This document shows positions 5,099-11,434 of a DNA stretch of 37,895 nt, in pieces. The first letter of the stretch is position 1. Every line of letters starts with the position of its first letter. The stretch comes from an uncultured Lachnospira sp. GTDB lineage: Bacteria > Bacillota > Clostridia > Lachnospirales > Lachnospiraceae. The stretch covers positions 1 through 37,895 of the forward strand of contig CALWKC010000028.1 of the NCBI GenBank assembly GCA_944381165.1. Reading direction: 5' to 3'. A model generated the notes under the pieces. It was not told where the DNA came from and searched no databases. It saw nothing but the letters and a program-made list of their open reading frames with translations. Made by a program: the position numbers and the translations under genes.

Positions 5099-5641
5099 TT
5101 AATTGCCTTCAAGATGTACAACCGTCATATCATGGTGCACTTCCCTCAAAAAAGTATTAAATATATCGTCCGTCCTTACCTTTAGGCTTGAGGTATTCAC
5201 ACACGGATGACAGCCGATATACTCCCCCTTGAGCACATCCTCGTCGACCAGCAGGCGGACATTATTGTCAGTGTCATTCATAAGTCCCATAATGCTCACT
5301 GACCCGGGACTTATATCAAGATATTCCTCCATATGCTCCGTGTCGGCAAAAGACAGTCTTGCGCTGTTTATCTGCGACGACAGTTCCTTCGTCTTAAACG
5401 GCTTGTCAGCGGGCATCATAAGCAGATAAAAAGATGTCTTTTGCCTGTTGCACAAAAACAGATTTTTGCAAATTACAGCCCCAAGAATTCCGTCAATCTC
5501 TTCACACACCTCCATTGTCGTCGCAGGAGCATGGTCTGTTCTCTTATATTTTATTCCGAGCCTGTCCAAAAAATCATATACTCTTATTTCCTTTTCCTCC
5601 CGCCCTTCAGTGTTCACCGGGCGTCCGTCATATATCTCCAT
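5099..5641 (-). CDS. ProX-type Ala-tRNA(Pro) deacylase (YbaK/EbsC fold)
   Basis: The 180-aa protein belongs to the free-standing editing domains that hydrolyse mischarged aminoacyl-tRNA, the PrdX/ProXp-ala branch acting on Ala-tRNA(Pro). Visible signatures are DHAPATTMEVCEEI (about 36-49), KNLFL (59-63), the glycine-rich GSVSIMGL and GCHPCVNTSSL near the C-terminus. Its start overlaps the stop of the upstream Nudix fusion by one base (TAATG), so the two are translated together. Specificity for Ala-tRNA(Pro) is family knowledge, not visible directly. Confidence 0.85.
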   Translation of the reverse strand: MEIYDGRPVNTEGREEKEIRVYDFLDRLGIKYKRTDHAPATTMEVCEEIDGILGAVICKNLFLCNRQKTSFYLLMMPADKPFKTKELSSQINSARLSFADTEHMEEYLDISPGSVSIMGLMNDTDNNVRLLVDEDVLKGEYIGCHPCVNTSSLKVRTDDIFNTFLREVHHDMTVVHLEGN

Positions 5642-6492
5642 TATGCTCTCCTGTTTTTAAGTTCATTATCAATTAAATTCTCATATTCTAAAAAACGTCC
5701 CTGCTCTGATTTGACAAATCTTTCAGAATATACAAGCTTCTTAAATTCTTCATATGTAAGGAACTCATAATCCATAGTTTCGCCTTCCTGAAGATGTACC
5801 TCCGTGTCATTGTCAACATCTGTCAAATATCCGTGGTAAATACAGTGTCTCACGTCGTCAACGCAGTGATATATTTCCTTTAAATCATGGGTTGTCCTGC
5901 AAATACCCGTCTCCTCTTCAAGCTCACGCACAGCTCCCTGAAGCGGCGTTTCTCCCGCCAAAATCGAGCCACCGGTAACCTCCCATTTCAACGGATTAGT
6001 CTTGTTTCTCGAACGCTGTGTCGTAAGAATACAGCCGTCCTCCCTGCGCACATAAACAACAACGGCTATATGGTATACTCCTTTGTTCAGTGATTTTGCC
6101 ATACTCCTCGGTATCTGATACCCCAGCTTATTTTCATTGCAGTCATAGGCATCCCACATCTCCTCATTGAGCATTTCGACATAGCTGTCATAATACTGCT
6201 CCTGAAAATAAACCATTTCCTCTATCTGCTGTTTATTGTAAGGAATATTTTCGGGAGCAATGACCCATTTTTCCTCAATATCATCTTTTCTGTGAATAAC
6301 AGCAATCCTCTTTCCCGTAAAGCTGTCCAGCGGCGTGTCGACACCTAACACATAAGCATCCTGTTCCTCTCCGTCAGGAGCCATTATTCCCTCAATATAC
6401 CCGTAATTGACAGGATAAATCATTGACGGATAATCGGGATGAGAACTTCCGATAGGTCTGTCAATAGTAACATTATACAATTCATCTTCCAC
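5641..6492 (-). CDS. Inorganic pyrophosphatase-like domain fused to a Nudix hydrolase
   Basis: Two domains in 283 aa. Residues 1 to about 105 resemble class I inorganic pyrophosphatase: YPVNYGYIEG (26-35) and a motif DGEEQD (40-45) in place of the metal-binding DGDPLD, then a strand and a WVIAPE end. Two of the three conserved acids remain, so hydrolysis of PPi is uncertain. Residues about 136-275 are a Nudix domain with a complete box, G175-X5-E181-X7-RELEEETG (189-196), which cleaves X-linked nucleoside diphosphates or pyrophosphates. The start is GTG with a poor ribosome site; AAGGAAGG lies too far upstream. Transcribed with proX. The substrate is unknown; it may be a nucleotide by-product or isopentenyl diphosphate-like compound. 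Confidence 0.8.
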   Translation of the reverse strand: MEDELYNVTIDRPIGSSHPDYPSMIYPVNYGYIEGIMAPDGEEQDAYVLGVDTPLDSFTGKRIAVIHRKDDIEEKWVIAPENIPYNKQQIEEMVYFQEQYYDSYVEMLNEEMWDAYDCNENKLGYQIPRSMAKSLNKGVYHIAVVVYVRREDGCILTTQRSRNKTNPLKWEVTGGSILAGETPLQGAVRELEEETGICRTTHDLKEIYHCVDDVRHCIYHGYLTDVDNDTEVHLQEGETMDYEFLTYEEFKKLVYSERFVKSEQGRFLEYENLIDNELKNRRA

Positions 6493-6810: not shown

Positions 6811-7500
6811 ATGATGGAAATATTTGAACAGCTGCCTGGAGAAAATGCCAAAAAATATGCCAAAAGAATGCTTTTATATAATATAATCAACCTTAATTTC
6901 AAACCAGGTGACAAAATTAATGAAGCTGAGTTGTGTACGCTTTACGGAATAAGCAGAACGCCTATACGCGAAGCAATTCTTGAATTAAGCCAGCAGAATA
7001 TGATTGATATTTATCCGAAACAGGGAACTTTTGTGTCTCTCATCGACACTGAAGCAATCAACGAGTTTCTCTCGCTGCGTGAGCTTATGGAACAAAAAAT
7101 AACAGCCCTTGCATGTCAGCGTCTGAATTCGGAACATATTGCTCATCTGCGTGAAAATATCGCGCTGTGGGAGTATCATATTAAAAACAGCAGCGTCGCC
7201 AAAATGCAGCAGTGCGACAAGGATTTTCACAAATACATATATCATGCCTGCGGCAAACAGTTCTGGCATAAAATTATCCGCGAAAATGCCTATCAGTTTG
7301 ACAGAGTTGTCATACTGATGTTTTCATCTGTAGATACTGACAAGATTATACGCGACCACATAGAAATGGTAAATGCTTTTGAGGCTCACGACTCCGAGAA
7401 AGCGTATATCATCTCGGCGCAGCACACCGCAAGATATATAGAGCACAAAGAAGAATTTAAGAAAAATTTCCCTTCTTACTTTAAAAAAATTTTGATTTAA
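6811..7500 (+). CDS. GntR family regulator, FadR (FCD) subfamily
   Basis: The 229-aa protein has a winged helix at about 15-75 (NEAELCTLYGISRTPIREAI is the recognition region) and an all-helical FCD effector domain from about 80 on, with metal-ligand-like histidines in KDFHKYIYHACG and RDHIEMVNAFEAHD. FCD regulators bind small organic acids. AGAGG lies 8 bases before the ATG. The adjacent downstream element is the small RNA candidate at 7588-7815, and no metabolic gene adjoins it, so its target is not evident. Confidence 0.88.
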   Translation: MMEIFEQLPGENAKKYAKRMLLYNIINLNFKPGDKINEAELCTLYGISRTPIREAILELSQQNMIDIYPKQGTFVSLIDTEAINEFLSLRELMEQKITALACQRLNSEHIAHLRENIALWEYHIKNSSVAKMQQCDKDFHKYIYHACGKQFWHKIIRENAYQFDRVVILMFSSVDTDKIIRDHIEMVNAFEAHDSEKAYIISAQHTARYIEHKEEFKKNFPSYFKKILI

Positions 7501-7553
7501 TTTCACACCACAGAAAATTTTCCATTTTTTTGCAAAATAAGACAAAAAATCTG

Positions 7554-7582
7554 TTGACATATTATTTGTATAGTGGTATAAA
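7554..7582 (+). promoter_or_regulatory. Strong promoter with no protein gene behind it
   Basis: TTGACA (7554-7559), a 17-base spacer and TATAAA (7577-7582) match sigma-A consensus closely. Downstream to 7815 there is no credible ORF, but there are four hairpins and a terminator, so the promoter probably drives an RNA gene. Confidence 0.75.
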
Positions 7583-7587
7583 ATTAA

Positions 7588-7815
7588 TAACGTAATATAT
7601 TTCACACGTTGATATATATTACGCCTCATTATTATGTTGCTCCACCTGCAACAATAATTATGACAACCTCTCATTTTTGATATATAGCGGCAGCCACCTA
7701 CACATCCCCCCTCTTATAAAAGGTGGTTGCAGGCTATATCTCCTAATGAAAGGGTATCTTACATTCAACTTTGAGTTTGAGTAAGAGTTTATAGCGCCGC
7801 AAGGCGCTTTTTTTA
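7588..7815 (+). ncRNA. Candidate small regulatory RNA, about 225 nt
   Basis: Between the promoter and a classical terminator lie, in order: hairpin 1 (7591-7623, ten perfect pairs), hairpin 2 (7627-7662, GTTGC/GCAAC stem extended to about 14 pairs), hairpin 3 (7682-7739, seven plus ten pairs, with a 20-odd base loop holding six cytosines at 7706-7711), a weaker CTTAC/GTAAG hairpin (about 7757-7785), and the terminator stem AGCGCC-GCAA-GGCGCT with a T-run. An exposed C-rich loop is how several Firmicute sRNAs pair with ribosome sites of targets. It was not recognised as tmRNA, 6S, SRP or RNase P RNA. The start is estimated from the promoter. Confidence 0.7.
7793..7814 (+). terminator. Intrinsic terminator of the small RNA
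   Basis: AGCGCC and GGCGCT form a perfect stem with a GCAA tetraloop, followed by seven thymines. Confidence 0.9.
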
Positions 7816-7822
7816 TTCCATT

Positions 7823-7858
7823 AAAAAATCGGCACAGCCTCTATTGCAGCCATGCCGA
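7823..7858 (-). terminator. Terminator of the gltX operon
   Basis: On the minus strand TCGGCA and TGCCGA enclose a loop and are followed by six thymines (7823-7828). It lies just after gltX and back-to-back with the small RNA terminator. Confidence 0.65.
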
Positions 7859-7883
7859 AATCAATTTAATCCGGTTTTTAATT

Positions 7884-9548
7884 TTAATTCTGACTCATAG
7901 CACTTTCAATTCTCTGCCTCATCTGCTCTTCTCCCATGATATGGACTATTGACCACAAATCAGGCGTGTTTGCACGCCCTGTGACAGCTATTCTTACCAC
8001 CTCTGCCACATCAGATACATTTCCCTTATAATTATCAGGAGCCGCCTTGTACGCCTTCATATCGGAAGCATAACCATGCCTGTCGGCGATTGCCTTTAAC
8101 TTGTTAAACCATGCAGAATTGTCGTCGCTGTGATCATACTCAGACAGATAATCAGAAAGTATTTCTCTGACCTCTGAGCCGTCCAGCCTGAAAGCATCCT
8201 TTTCCTGAGAGCTATCCTCATCATCGAAGAAATATGAAATCATCTCAAATACCTGCTTTGCATACATGAAATCCTTTCTTCTGCGCTTCATTCCAACGCC
8301 CATATAAAGTCTTAAAATATCAAGCAGCTTCTCACGGTCCGCAAACCAAATATCTTTCTTTTCAAGCGCGTTTTCATCCGCCCATGTATAAAGGAAATCA
8401 AAGAGCTCCTCCTCTGAAAGCTTTGAAAGCTCATTTTTACAGATATTGTGAAGCTTATCCTTATCAAAAAGCGCACCTGACTGGCTCATTTTATCAATCG
8501 AAAACGGAAATTCATTAATGTCCTTGTCCGGAAACTGCTCATGCCACTCTTCAAAATTAGAATTGAGAAGCGTCATGAGATACACCTTCATACAATACGG
8601 ATGATACCCGTCCTGTCTGTAATAATCAAGTGAAAGCTCAGGGTCCTTTCTCTTGGAAAGCTTTCTCTTTCCTCCTGTTTCCTCGTCAAACTTCATCAGA
8701 TGCGCCGTGTGCGCATATTCCGGCATCTTAAAACCAAGCACATGAAAGAGTTCATAATGAACTGGTGCTGAGGCAAGCCATTCACCGCCTCTGACTACAA
8801 CTGTTGTGCGCATTAAATGGTCGTCAATAGCGTGCGCAAAGTGATAAGTCGGAATTCCGTCCCGCTTCAGAAGCACAATATCATGAATATTCTCAGGCAG
8901 CTTAACCTCTCCCTTAATACTGTCTTTAAATATAATTTCCCTGTCAGGGCTGCCCTGAGAGCGAAGACGCAGAACATACGGCTTGCCATCTGCTAAATTC
9001 TTTTCAATCTCATCAAGCGACAAATTACGGCACACAGCATATTCTCCGTAATATCCTGTAAGCGCCTTGTCGGCCTCCTGCTTCTGTCTGACTGCCTCAA
9101 GCTCCTCCTCAGTGCAGAAACACGGGTATGCAAGACCTCTCTCTACAAGATTTTTTGCATATGCATGATATATTTCCACACGCTGCCGCTGAAAATAAGG
9201 CCCGTATATATTCTGAGGGGCGTCATCCGGAAAGCCTGCTCCCTCGTCAAATTCAATATCAAAATATCTGAGCGTATCAATTATAAGCTCAACAGCTCCG
9301 TCAACCTTACGCTTCTCGTCCGTATCCTCTATTCTCAGATAAAAAACTCCGCCATGTCTGTGCGCAATGCGCTCGTCAGCAAGCGCGCTGTAAAGATTGC
9401 CGAGATGAATAAAGCCCGTAGGGCTTGGAGCCATACGTGTCACCTGCGCCTTAGCCGGCAGTTTTCTGTATGGAAACTTCTCCTCGTAATACTCCGGGGT
9501 ATGTTCAACATCCGGAAAAAGCATTTGTGCCAATTTATTGTAATCCAT
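7884..9548 (-). CDS. gltX: Glutamyl-tRNA synthetase, clostridial long form
   Basis: Charges tRNA(Glu) in the cytoplasm. The 554-aa chain carries the class I signatures: the HIGH motif as HLGN in APSPTGFIHLGN (about 41-52) and the KMSKS motif as KLSKR in GGKRKLSKRKDPE (about 300). The IEDTD block that binds ATP/Glu is present. The C-terminal helical anticodon-binding half is longer and more divergent than in the Escherichia protein, as in the clostridial lineage. GGGAGG lies ahead of the ATG. It is the last gene of a probable add, relA-like, gltX unit, 50 bases after the alarmone-synthetase-like gene. Specificity for Glu alone or Glu plus Gln cannot be read. Confidence 0.93.
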   Translation of the reverse strand: MDYNKLAQMLFPDVEHTPEYYEEKFPYRKLPAKAQVTRMAPSPTGFIHLGNLYSALADERIAHRHGGVFYLRIEDTDEKRKVDGAVELIIDTLRYFDIEFDEGAGFPDDAPQNIYGPYFQRQRVEIYHAYAKNLVERGLAYPCFCTEEELEAVRQKQEADKALTGYYGEYAVCRNLSLDEIEKNLADGKPYVLRLRSQGSPDREIIFKDSIKGEVKLPENIHDIVLLKRDGIPTYHFAHAIDDHLMRTTVVVRGGEWLASAPVHYELFHVLGFKMPEYAHTAHLMKFDEETGGKRKLSKRKDPELSLDYYRQDGYHPYCMKVYLMTLLNSNFEEWHEQFPDKDINEFPFSIDKMSQSGALFDKDKLHNICKNELSKLSEEELFDFLYTWADENALEKKDIWFADREKLLDILRLYMGVGMKRRRKDFMYAKQVFEMISYFFDDEDSSQEKDAFRLDGSEVREILSDYLSEYDHSDDNSAWFNKLKAIADRHGYASDMKAYKAAPDNYKGNVSDVAEVVRIAVTGRANTPDLWSIVHIMGEEQMRQRIESAMSQN

Positions 9549-9598: not shown

Positions 9599-11434
9599 TC
9601 ATTTTGACTGTGTGTTTTCAATGTTTTTCTCTCTTATTTCAGCAACAAGCTGGCGTCTGTAAGCGCGGCAGCCGTTTTCATTCCAGTACTTTTTCTGTTC
9701 CAGCTTGATAACCTCAAACGTAGTCTCGAGTATATCAGACTTGTAGCTGGTCTTAGGCTCGGCATCACTGTAAAAAACAGTTATGGAATTATCATATCTA
9801 TGTTCATCAAGCCCGTATTCATACGCAAAACGACGCTTGCACTCCTCATCCTCAATCATCTTAATGTGAGCATAATATCCCACAAGATATGCAAAATAGT
9901 TGACGTCAAATTTATCAATCCACACATTATCATTTGCCATAAATACTATAACAGGAAATCTTCTGCCATAATTTTCTATGAGATTTTTCATCTCTTCATA
10001 ATTTTCCGTATTTACATGCTTAACATTTTCCCTCATGCGGACAACATCACAAATTCCGACATTGTCGGCAATTTCTCCGTAAAAATTAGGTCTTGAAAAA
10101 AGCACGTTCTCATTGTCCCTGTATCTCTCTTTCGGCTCTGCATACTCGTTGCTGACCTTAAATTCTATCCTGTCGCCGACTTTTTTCAGAGAAGCCCTGG
10201 AAATCCATATTCTGCTTGCGACCTTAGAGTCTATGTGCGTAGAGCATTCCTCAAAATACAAATCTTCCTCGTCATAATGCACCTCGACCATATAGCCCGG
10301 CAGGGTTTTATAATAATCTGCCACAGTCTCCGGCAAATCATTAAAAGCCTCGCTGTATCTTGAGTGTATCCACGCATAAATATAACCCGCTGCCTTTTTA
10401 AAAGCCTCCCGCGGCGTGAGATTAGTTGTTTCAAGAAACGTATCCGCCTGAAATACCTTATAATTTCCAAATTTTTTAAACGGCTCAAATTTTTTTCTTT
10501 TGCTGAAATTTTCCTCCGTTCCCGCTTCGCTTTCAATTCGCTCAAATACTTGATTAATGCGCTCATCATTTGGCCCAAGCTGATTTACAATTTTCACGAT
10601 ATAATTAATGCAGAGCTCGGGATTTTTGTCAAATGTGTTGTTCCACAGCTTTGTTATAGCAAGACGGCGGTCAAATTTAAAAAACTTTTTAGCTAACTCT
10701 GTATCTTCATCAAAAATCCTGCAAAGCTCCGGGTGCATAAGCTCGTTGTTGAGCTTCAGCCTGTAATGACACCTTATCATATCGCTCCACTTATGGTCCT
10801 TGTAATGCTGATGTCCCAAATCTTCAAGGAGCTTTACAACCGAATCGTCGCACAGCTCAAGTGTTGCAAGTATGCTGTTCATTTTTCTTGCCAGCGCCTC
10901 GTTGCCCTCTCCGAATGCAGAGCCCTTATATCTTAAATCGTGCTCAATTTCATGCCAGCCCTCAAATGAGTTCGTTCTGACCTGAACTTCAAAAGTATCA
11001 TCTATGTAGTCCGACAGCACAGGATTGACAATAGTTTTAGCCAGATAACCCGGCAGCTTGAATATTCCGTTTACCTTCATCGCCTTGAATTCATACTCAT
11101 TATTTTCGGTTGTCTCCCACACCCCGGGCTCGGCAAACAGAGTGTCAAGCAGACTTCTGCATATGGAAACATCGTCAACAAAATACAGCATTATTCTTAT
11201 GCCTATTAAATCCTGCATTTTTTTATCTTCATTTTCAGTTCCAGGACGCCTGTAATCCTTGTACTGCAGTTTATTGACAGTTGAGTCCGACGCCTTGACG
11301 CGGTAGGCTATTCTGTAATAGAAGCCCGCTTTTTTTAATTTTTCTTCAATAATGCTCAGTAAATCCACCCTCACAACGTCGGGAACTATAATCTGTTCCA
11401 CGCACTCTTTACAAAACAATTCATTTACCTTCAT
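9599..11434 (-). CDS. RelA/SpoT-domain protein with large unassigned C-terminal region
   Basis: Residues about 25-175 are a RelA/SpoT nucleotide pyrophosphotransferase domain: DLIGIRI with D75 and R80, GY (129-130) that stacks on guanosine, EVQVRT (149-154) and WHEIEHDLRYK (160-170). The acids that bind Mg and ATP are therefore kept. The usual SLH after GY is replaced by LAK. There is no HD hydrolase, TGS or ACT domain, so it is not a housekeeping Rel. About 430 further residues follow; the tail (about 330-611) contains SRPNFYGEIA, RRFPVIVFMAND and a YFAYLVGYYAHIKMI stretch, a pattern I have seen in proteins of unknown function near conflict genes, but I cannot name it. Likely product would be (p)ppGpp or a related pyrophosphorylated nucleotide. 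The start overlaps add by 14 bases. Confidence 0.75.
   Translation of the reverse strand: MKVNELFCKECVEQIIVPDVVRVDLLSIIEEKLKKAGFYYRIAYRVKASDSTVNKLQYKDYRRPGTENEDKKMQDLIGIRIMLYFVDDVSICRSLLDTLFAEPGVWETTENNEYEFKAMKVNGIFKLPGYLAKTIVNPVLSDYIDDTFEVQVRTNSFEGWHEIEHDLRYKGSAFGEGNEALARKMNSILATLELCDDSVVKLLEDLGHQHYKDHKWSDMIRCHYRLKLNNELMHPELCRIFDEDTELAKKFFKFDRRLAITKLWNNTFDKNPELCINYIVKIVNQLGPNDERINQVFERIESEAGTEENFSKRKKFEPFKKFGNYKVFQADTFLETTNLTPREAFKKAAGYIYAWIHSRYSEAFNDLPETVADYYKTLPGYMVEVHYDEEDLYFEECSTHIDSKVASRIWISRASLKKVGDRIEFKVSNEYAEPKERYRDNENVLFSRPNFYGEIADNVGICDVVRMRENVKHVNTENYEEMKNLIENYGRRFPVIVFMANDNVWIDKFDVNYFAYLVGYYAHIKMIEDEECKRRFAYEYGLDEHRYDNSITVFYSDAEPKTSYKSDILETTFEVIKLEQKKYWNENGCRAYRRQLVAEIREKNIENTQSK

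Follow-up and report, generated by a model that had tools for sequence, protein, structure and literature searches.

RoxS/RsaE and FsrA are sRNAs of Bacillus and Staphylococcus that carry UCCC loops. IsrR from Staphylococcus is an iron-sparing sRNA with Fur control of isrR, and it is described as having three C-rich regions predicted to be single-stranded, two in loops and one beside a stem (PMC9410917). In LhrC from Listeria, three CU-rich motifs occur in a loop, in a single-stranded linker and in a second loop, and each can bind one mRNA at its Shine-Dalgarno region (PMC4132741). The regulatory RNAs of Lachnospira and its close relatives, which are gut commensals, seem little charted. A literature search found no paper on a Lachnospira sRNA. 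The accessible text of a stool small-RNA paper names reads from the family Lachnospiraceae, but not the sRNA described here (PMC10138442), and a word search of the main text of two ncRNA surveys (PMC11109978, PMC8632094) found no Lachnospir, Eubacterium, eligens, gltX or GntR.

We analysed a stretch of 37,895 nt from an uncultured Lachnospira sp. (the window; the genome to which it belongs is labelled G000). The locus at 7554-7815 on the forward strand is very probably a real RNA gene. It probably encodes an independently transcribed, trans-acting sRNA that blocks Shine-Dalgarno sites or ribosome binding sites. The features of the locus and its neighbours are as follows.

5641..6492, minus strand: nudix-domain gene, with a homologue near the locus in all six members
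6811..7500, plus strand: GntR/FCD transcription regulator gene, the upstream neighbour in five of the six members
7554..7582, plus strand: predicted sigma-70-type promoter, TTGACA-17 bp-TATAAA (boxes 7554-7559 and 7577-7582), from sequence
7589..7815, plus strand: predicted sRNA transcript of about 225 nt (fold z-score of -8.1, homologues, no Rfam match)
7591..7623, plus strand: H1, the 5′ end hairpin, kept across members in form and not in sequence
7626..7663, plus strand: H2 hairpin, stem nearly invariant
7640..7646, plus strand: C-rich motif 1, H2 loop CUCCACC, the same in 6/6 members, with a mean unpaired probability of 0.86 in each
7663..7678, plus strand: C-rich motif 2, linker ACAACCUCUCAUUUUU, whose first 14 nt are the same in 6/6 members
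7682..7739, plus strand: H3 hairpin with a 21-nt loop (7700-7720), stem covarying
7703..7716, plus strand: C-rich motif 3, H3 loop, CAUCCCCCCUCUUA, holding CCCCCC at 7706-7711
7757..7786, plus strand: H4, a weak hairpin, kept outside the window only in the sister species G020
7793..7815, plus strand: intrinsic terminator of the sRNA (stem 7793-7808 and T run), from the terminator scan
7829..7858, minus strand: terminator-like site of its own for the mRNA of the convergent gltX, from the terminator scan
7884..9548, minus strand: gltX, the convergent downstream neighbour, with its stop at 7884

The sequence-only reading had described a near-consensus promoter and a terminator enclosing a region with no ORF, located between a GntR gene and gltX, and all of this held up. 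The promoter agrees with 11 of the 12 consensus bases and has a TG one base upstream of the -10 box, while sites of this score occur seven times in the 37.9 kb window, counting both strands. It is missing from the list made by the terminator and promoter scan, which demands a T at the last -10 position. Because of the position of the -10 box, the transcript would start at about 7589-7591. Three terminator-like sites were found in a region of 701 bases where 0.4 were expected (both strands), and the one belonging to the sRNA is the sole site on the plus strand. The sRNA has, by its sequence, a promoter and an intrinsic terminator of its own in the window. The gltX stop lies 68 nt beyond the transcript end and, since each strand has its own terminator, both transcripts can end in the window without overlapping. 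Plus-strand frames of at least 20 codons within 7589-7815 were limited to one of 35 and one of 23 codons, both starting with TTG. No ATG or GTG frame of that length was found inside the RNA on this strand, and no ORF was credible. On the minus strand, a 116-codon ATG frame, antisense to the GntR gene, and a 36-codon TTG frame reach into the RNA.

Six members are known, namely the window, four homologues in the genus Lachnospira (G020, G006, G004 and G016) and one from outside the genus. A blastn search of 61 genomes clearly recovered G020 (97%) and G006, G004 and G016 (80-82%). The other matches had E values above 0.001 and were taken as chance. A covariance-model search, which the sequence-only reading had proposed, also found relatives. 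The model built from the five Lachnospira members (R1) matched 5 out of 22 genomes of the genus, 3 out of 397 of the family and 1 out of 41 in G301 and its relatives; a six-member model (R2) matched 2 out of 392 genomes of the order. G301, from another Lachnospiraceae genus, is a new member (locus L030), scoring 73.8 bits with R1 and 86.1 bits with R2, of which it is itself a part. A 34 bit R1 match in G354 was rejected as a member, as the loops were absent. Low R1 scores mean little, because the wrong strand of a true member also gets 24.7 bits.

A pattern scan for the H2 loop and the linker in 84,980 species genomes returned eight stretches, five of which were known members. The remaining three (L031, L034 and L035) were from unrelated phyla, had no R1 match at E 0.01 and are likely chance matches. 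A viral stretch (L069) was taken as chance for the same lack of an R1 match at E 0.01. Diverged members may slip through the initial filters of these genome searches, so that absence elsewhere is not proven. In the 2.57 Mb genome of the window the gene has a single copy, with one blastn match (E 0.001) and one covariance-model match. In a motif scan around gltX in 21 genomes, all three C-rich elements were found in carriers only, and the RNA was absent near gltX in the non-carriers G002, G019, G007 and G013, as read by eye. Near-matches of the form TTGCTTC(A/G)CCTTCAA in L049, L051 and L052 were in apparent coding regions, as read without a family search. A C5 run was missing from the 420 nt downstream of all eight GntR homologues in non-carriers (L061-L068), and CTCCACC, present in four of these, fell within apparent coding sequence. 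Downstream of gltX in the non-carrier G007 (L054:940-1480), we observed a dense row of repeated short palindromes, e.g. GTGCACATC...GATGTGCAC.

The predicted fold is a row of separate hairpins, three strong ones and a weak fourth, followed by the terminator. For 7588-7815 the minimum free energy was -73.7 kcal/mol, whereas shuffles averaged -40.8 (sd 4.07), and none of 200 shuffles was as low (z -8.1). In the four members folded with shuffles, z was -8.1 for the window, -8.2 for G004, -8.5 for G016 and -7.7 for L030. The sequence-only reading had claimed four hairpins with long perfect stems. Long stems were indeed recovered, three of them strong, but H2, H3 and H4 contain bulges or mismatches, and H4 is weak and unconserved. 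In L030 an unrelated sequence makes a hairpin at the place of H1, a result from one fold, which pairs differently when the promoter flank is folded along. In H2, 11 of the 14 pairs never vary. Across the H2 and H3 core, both sides change in 7 of the 31 pairs, which 0 of 500 shuffles reached and for which slid controls gave 0-2, and pairing is present in 92.8% of cells. This covariation rests on few events, as the members number only six, two of which are 97% alike. RNAalifold, run on the five Lachnospira sequences, gave 7 of 47 pairs changed on both sides.

The ends of the RNA are kept to differing degrees. TTGACA occurs at the equivalent position in G020, G006, G004 and L030. The box is not kept in G016, where the promoter is less clear. 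Five of the six members have either a terminator or a stem followed by a U-run. Terminators lie 3′ of H3 in the window, G020, G006 and L030, those of G006 and L030 being different. In G016, and there only, a long U-run directly follows H3, with no downstream terminator besides H3. The exception is G004, in which H3 is followed by a strong palindrome with no clear U-run.

Three C-rich motifs are identical in all six members: CUCCACC in the H2 loop, ACAACCUCUCAUUU in the linker and CCCCCUCUUA in the H3 loop. The sequence-only reading had pointed to a single C-rich loop. CCCCCC is indeed present in the H3 loop, but it belongs to one of three conserved C-rich elements. The stem closing the H2 loop is also identical in 6/6 members. 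The H3 loop motif had an unpaired probability of 0.99-1.0 in all six, and its C-run is C6 in the window, G020, G006 and G004 and C5 in G016 and L030. For the linker, the unpaired probability was 0.29-0.44 in four members, 0.70 in G016 and 0.90 in L030. Several conserved C-rich motifs are predicted to be exposed in the loops and the linker, although exposure of the linker is only partial in the Lachnospira members, where the predicted folds leave it partly paired (unpaired 0.29-0.70). The loop motifs are identical between the two genera, although the H1 sequence is unrelated and H3 diverges.

We infer that the sRNA would be transcribed from its own promoter as 7589-7815 (+) and protected by H1 at the 5′ end and by the terminator at the 3′ end. 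H2 and H3 would hold out their C-rich loops, and the linker joining the two hairpins would supply a third C-rich stretch. All three may pair in trans with G-rich Shine-Dalgarno regions of mRNAs, using one or more elements per target, and the pairing would block ribosome loading, as has been reported from experiments for IsrR and LhrC. When the members are compared, the anti-Shine-Dalgarno type of Firmicute sRNA proposed in the sequence-only reading is the best supported: the hairpins are kept, the loops are conserved, the stems covary and most members keep a promoter-like box and a terminator.

Target prediction with the C-rich motifs, as the sequence-only reading had suggested, gave no significant genome-wide signal. 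The G000 sample comprised the window, a further stretch and 20 stretches of 20 kb each, in which a simple ORF caller gave 411 start regions. Duplex energies of the three motifs against these 411 starts showed no significant excess, with 7-60 of 60 shuffles matching, depending on the cut-off. Exact complements of the linker numbered 145 in six genomes, against 137 for a reversed-pattern control, the six RNA genes themselves included. For the loops, the counts against the reversed control in six genomes were 239 and 174 (H3) and 248 and 76 (H2). These excesses give no clear signal, because the Shine-Dalgarno sequence and codon use can explain them. Most complement matches in the fetched G000 loci were not at starts. 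GGAGG was found upstream of 140 of the 395 sampled starts, so G-rich sites to pair with exist. Of nine linker matches picked out, six were viewed in context (L081, L087 and L095 were left out), and all six (L077, L078, L080, L083, L086 and L093) were within or antisense to frames of more than 100 codons. A complement match in G016 was a palindrome followed by a T-run and is probably a terminator.

Among the matches listed, at least five complement matches were found on one strand within 6 kb on contig C14 of G000. They included the ribosome sites of a DHH-family gene and of a LytTR regulator (AGGGGGGAU), and a 12-nt perfect linker match in each of two duplicated leaders, which count as one event; an H2-type match was inside a coding region. 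The two leaders are near-identical duplicates. The module (L160:4371-11317) is composed of the DHH gene, the LytTR regulator and, in repeated units, a small exported-looking protein with lipoprotein-like proteins. Two of its proteins were tested and had no Pfam match. A further complement match, on C18, was also at a LytTR gene.

LytTR genes were gathered in eight genomes (58 matches; G020 was left out). In G000 the association of these genes with G-runs is real: GGGGG was found just before the start of 7 of 13 LytTR genes, counted by eye, and of 9 of 393 other sampled genes (Fisher p 5e-8; 10 of 393 when the stretch was widened slightly). Among the 13 genes (L160, L183, L252-L262), these seven have five or six G in a row as the ribosome site, which is rare elsewhere in the sampled genome. 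The sequence GGGGGGAU, which is complementary to the C6 loop, preceded 4 of the 13 LytTR genes and none of the 393 others. Outside the sample it was found before one exported-looking gene that is not LytTR, and three more copies in the genome were at no clear start. The association was noticed after the fact, and complementarity alone ties it to the RNA. In the other carriers, GGGGG preceded 2 of 26 LytTR genes (G006 1/8, G016 1/14 with one of 15 genes dropped because no start was found, G004 0/2, G301 0/2), and in non-carriers 1 of 18 (G007 1/3, G013 0/10, G012 0/5). At all sampled starts, GGGGG was counted at 15 of 564 in two carriers and at 1 of 173 in one non-carrier (p 0.14). Since the G-rich enrichment is not seen in the other carriers, we put forward the LytTR link as a hypothesis. 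If true, it would connect the sRNA with the signalling circuits of a gut commensal. A broader role as a post-transcriptional hub over peptide-signalling or secretion modules, with the C6 loop acting on LytTR ribosome sites containing GGGGGGAU and the linker on leaders of secreted-protein genes of the same modules, is speculative and on balance doubtful.

The neighbourhood of the RNA is partly shared between members, and this shared synteny speaks for a common origin of the locus. It also bears on two further explanations. The RNA could be a 3′-UTR product of the GntR mRNA, matured from read-through and acting mainly on or with the GntR gene. GntR/FCD genes do adjoin the RNA upstream in the window, G020, G006, G004 and L030 (the regulators of the window and L030 being only 26% identical), and no plus-strand terminator-like site lies between GntR and the promoter in the window. 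However, a promoter-like site of its own is present at 7554, and the RNA is kept in G016, which has no GntR homologue beside it and none genome-wide at E 1e-20. In L030, GntR and the RNA have a hairpin with a long T-run between them, so that the RNA there is more than a GntR 3′ UTR and probably has its own transcription. Such an origin is therefore distinctly unlikely. That the RNA is an antisense or convergent-overlap regulator of gltX is scarcely credible. The two genes are convergent and close in the window, and in G016 the gltX stop is only a few bases away from the end of H3 and its U-run, but each strand has a separate terminator in the window, gltX is about 4 kb from the RNA in G006, and another gene intervenes in L030. 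The nearest gene in L030 is RelA/SpoT-like and gltX is second, the opposite of the order in the window. The gene in the window at 9599-11434 (-), whose order relative to gltX is swapped in L030, encodes a 611-aa protein with no more than a weak match to GTP-diphosphokinase, located near the N-terminus (32.8 bits; the cut-off is 320). The N-terminus of the nudix-domain protein at 5641-6492 weakly resembles inorganic pyrophosphatase (23.3 bits; the cut-off is 23.5).

It is very improbable that the locus is a small protein gene, or that palindromes cluster there by chance with no RNA gene. The 35-codon TTG frame inside the RNA and the overlapping minus-strand frames could be read in favour of this, but no plus-strand frame of at least 20 codons inside the RNA starts with ATG or GTG, members differ in the length of the loop region of the 35-codon frame, and the covariation and conserved loops are those of an RNA. 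Alternatively, the RNA might bind a protein, by titration or as a scaffold, with the invariant H2 stem-loop and the C-rich loops as recognition elements. The near-invariance of the H2 stem exceeds what loop pairing alone requires, and the lack of a genome-wide excess of mRNA complementarity points the same way. However, 7589-7815 contains no GGA, which makes a CsrA sponge unlikely, and the letters that never vary form C/U-rich anti-Shine-Dalgarno strings at three sites, the pattern of pairing sRNAs. Stems conserved in sequence are also described for IsrR (PMC9410917). We consider protein binding unlikely, and a trans-acting sRNA directed at Shine-Dalgarno sites remains the preferred reading.

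The locus had been called unannotated, and a known Rfam family, the outcome named as refuting that claim, was not found at gathering or permissive scores. Rfam 15 at gathering scores gave no match in the window, and a permissive search of 7500-7900 gave seven chance-level matches, the best with E 0.36 and all far below gathering. 6S RNA is one long hairpin with a central bubble; it was unlisted even at E 10, and the fold here is of separate hairpins. CsrA sponges of the CsrB/RsmZ type carry repeated GGA in loops, a trinucleotide that the sRNA lacks. A cis-regulatory leader or riboswitch does not agree with the layout of the window, where a convergent gene comes after the terminator; the next gene is convergent in L030 too. 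RoxS/RsaE and FsrA also present exposed C-rich motifs against Shine-Dalgarno sites, but the Lachnospira RNA differs from them in size and architecture and has no Rfam match.

The closest likeness is to IsrR and LhrC. Like IsrR as described, the Lachnospira RNA has three stem-loops and a terminator in a low-GC Firmicute host, three C-rich regions (loop, loop and stem-adjacent) and stems with conserved sequence. In both, the length of the C-run varies between species (4-7 C in CRR1 of IsrR, 5-6 in the Lachnospira RNA). The genus and the locus differ, and no homology to IsrR or LhrC was found, the Rfam searches having given nothing above chance level. No obvious Fur-like site was seen by eye at the Lachnospira promoter. 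LhrC1-5 likewise have three C-rich motifs laid out as loop, linker and loop (PMC4132741). Unlike the motifs of the Lachnospira RNA, which differ from each other and belong to a single-copy gene, those of the multicopy LhrC share CUCCC, and the last motif-bearing loop is that of the terminator in LhrC and that of H3 here. By analogy, we infer that the RNA may work like IsrR and LhrC, and claim membership of neither family. A narrow family with this layout would support exposed C-rich anti-Shine-Dalgarno elements as a recurring solution in low-GC Firmicutes, and the sRNA offers defined loops to mutate. Compared with IsrR and LhrC by description only, it is a new, narrowly distributed family of an already known kind of sRNA.
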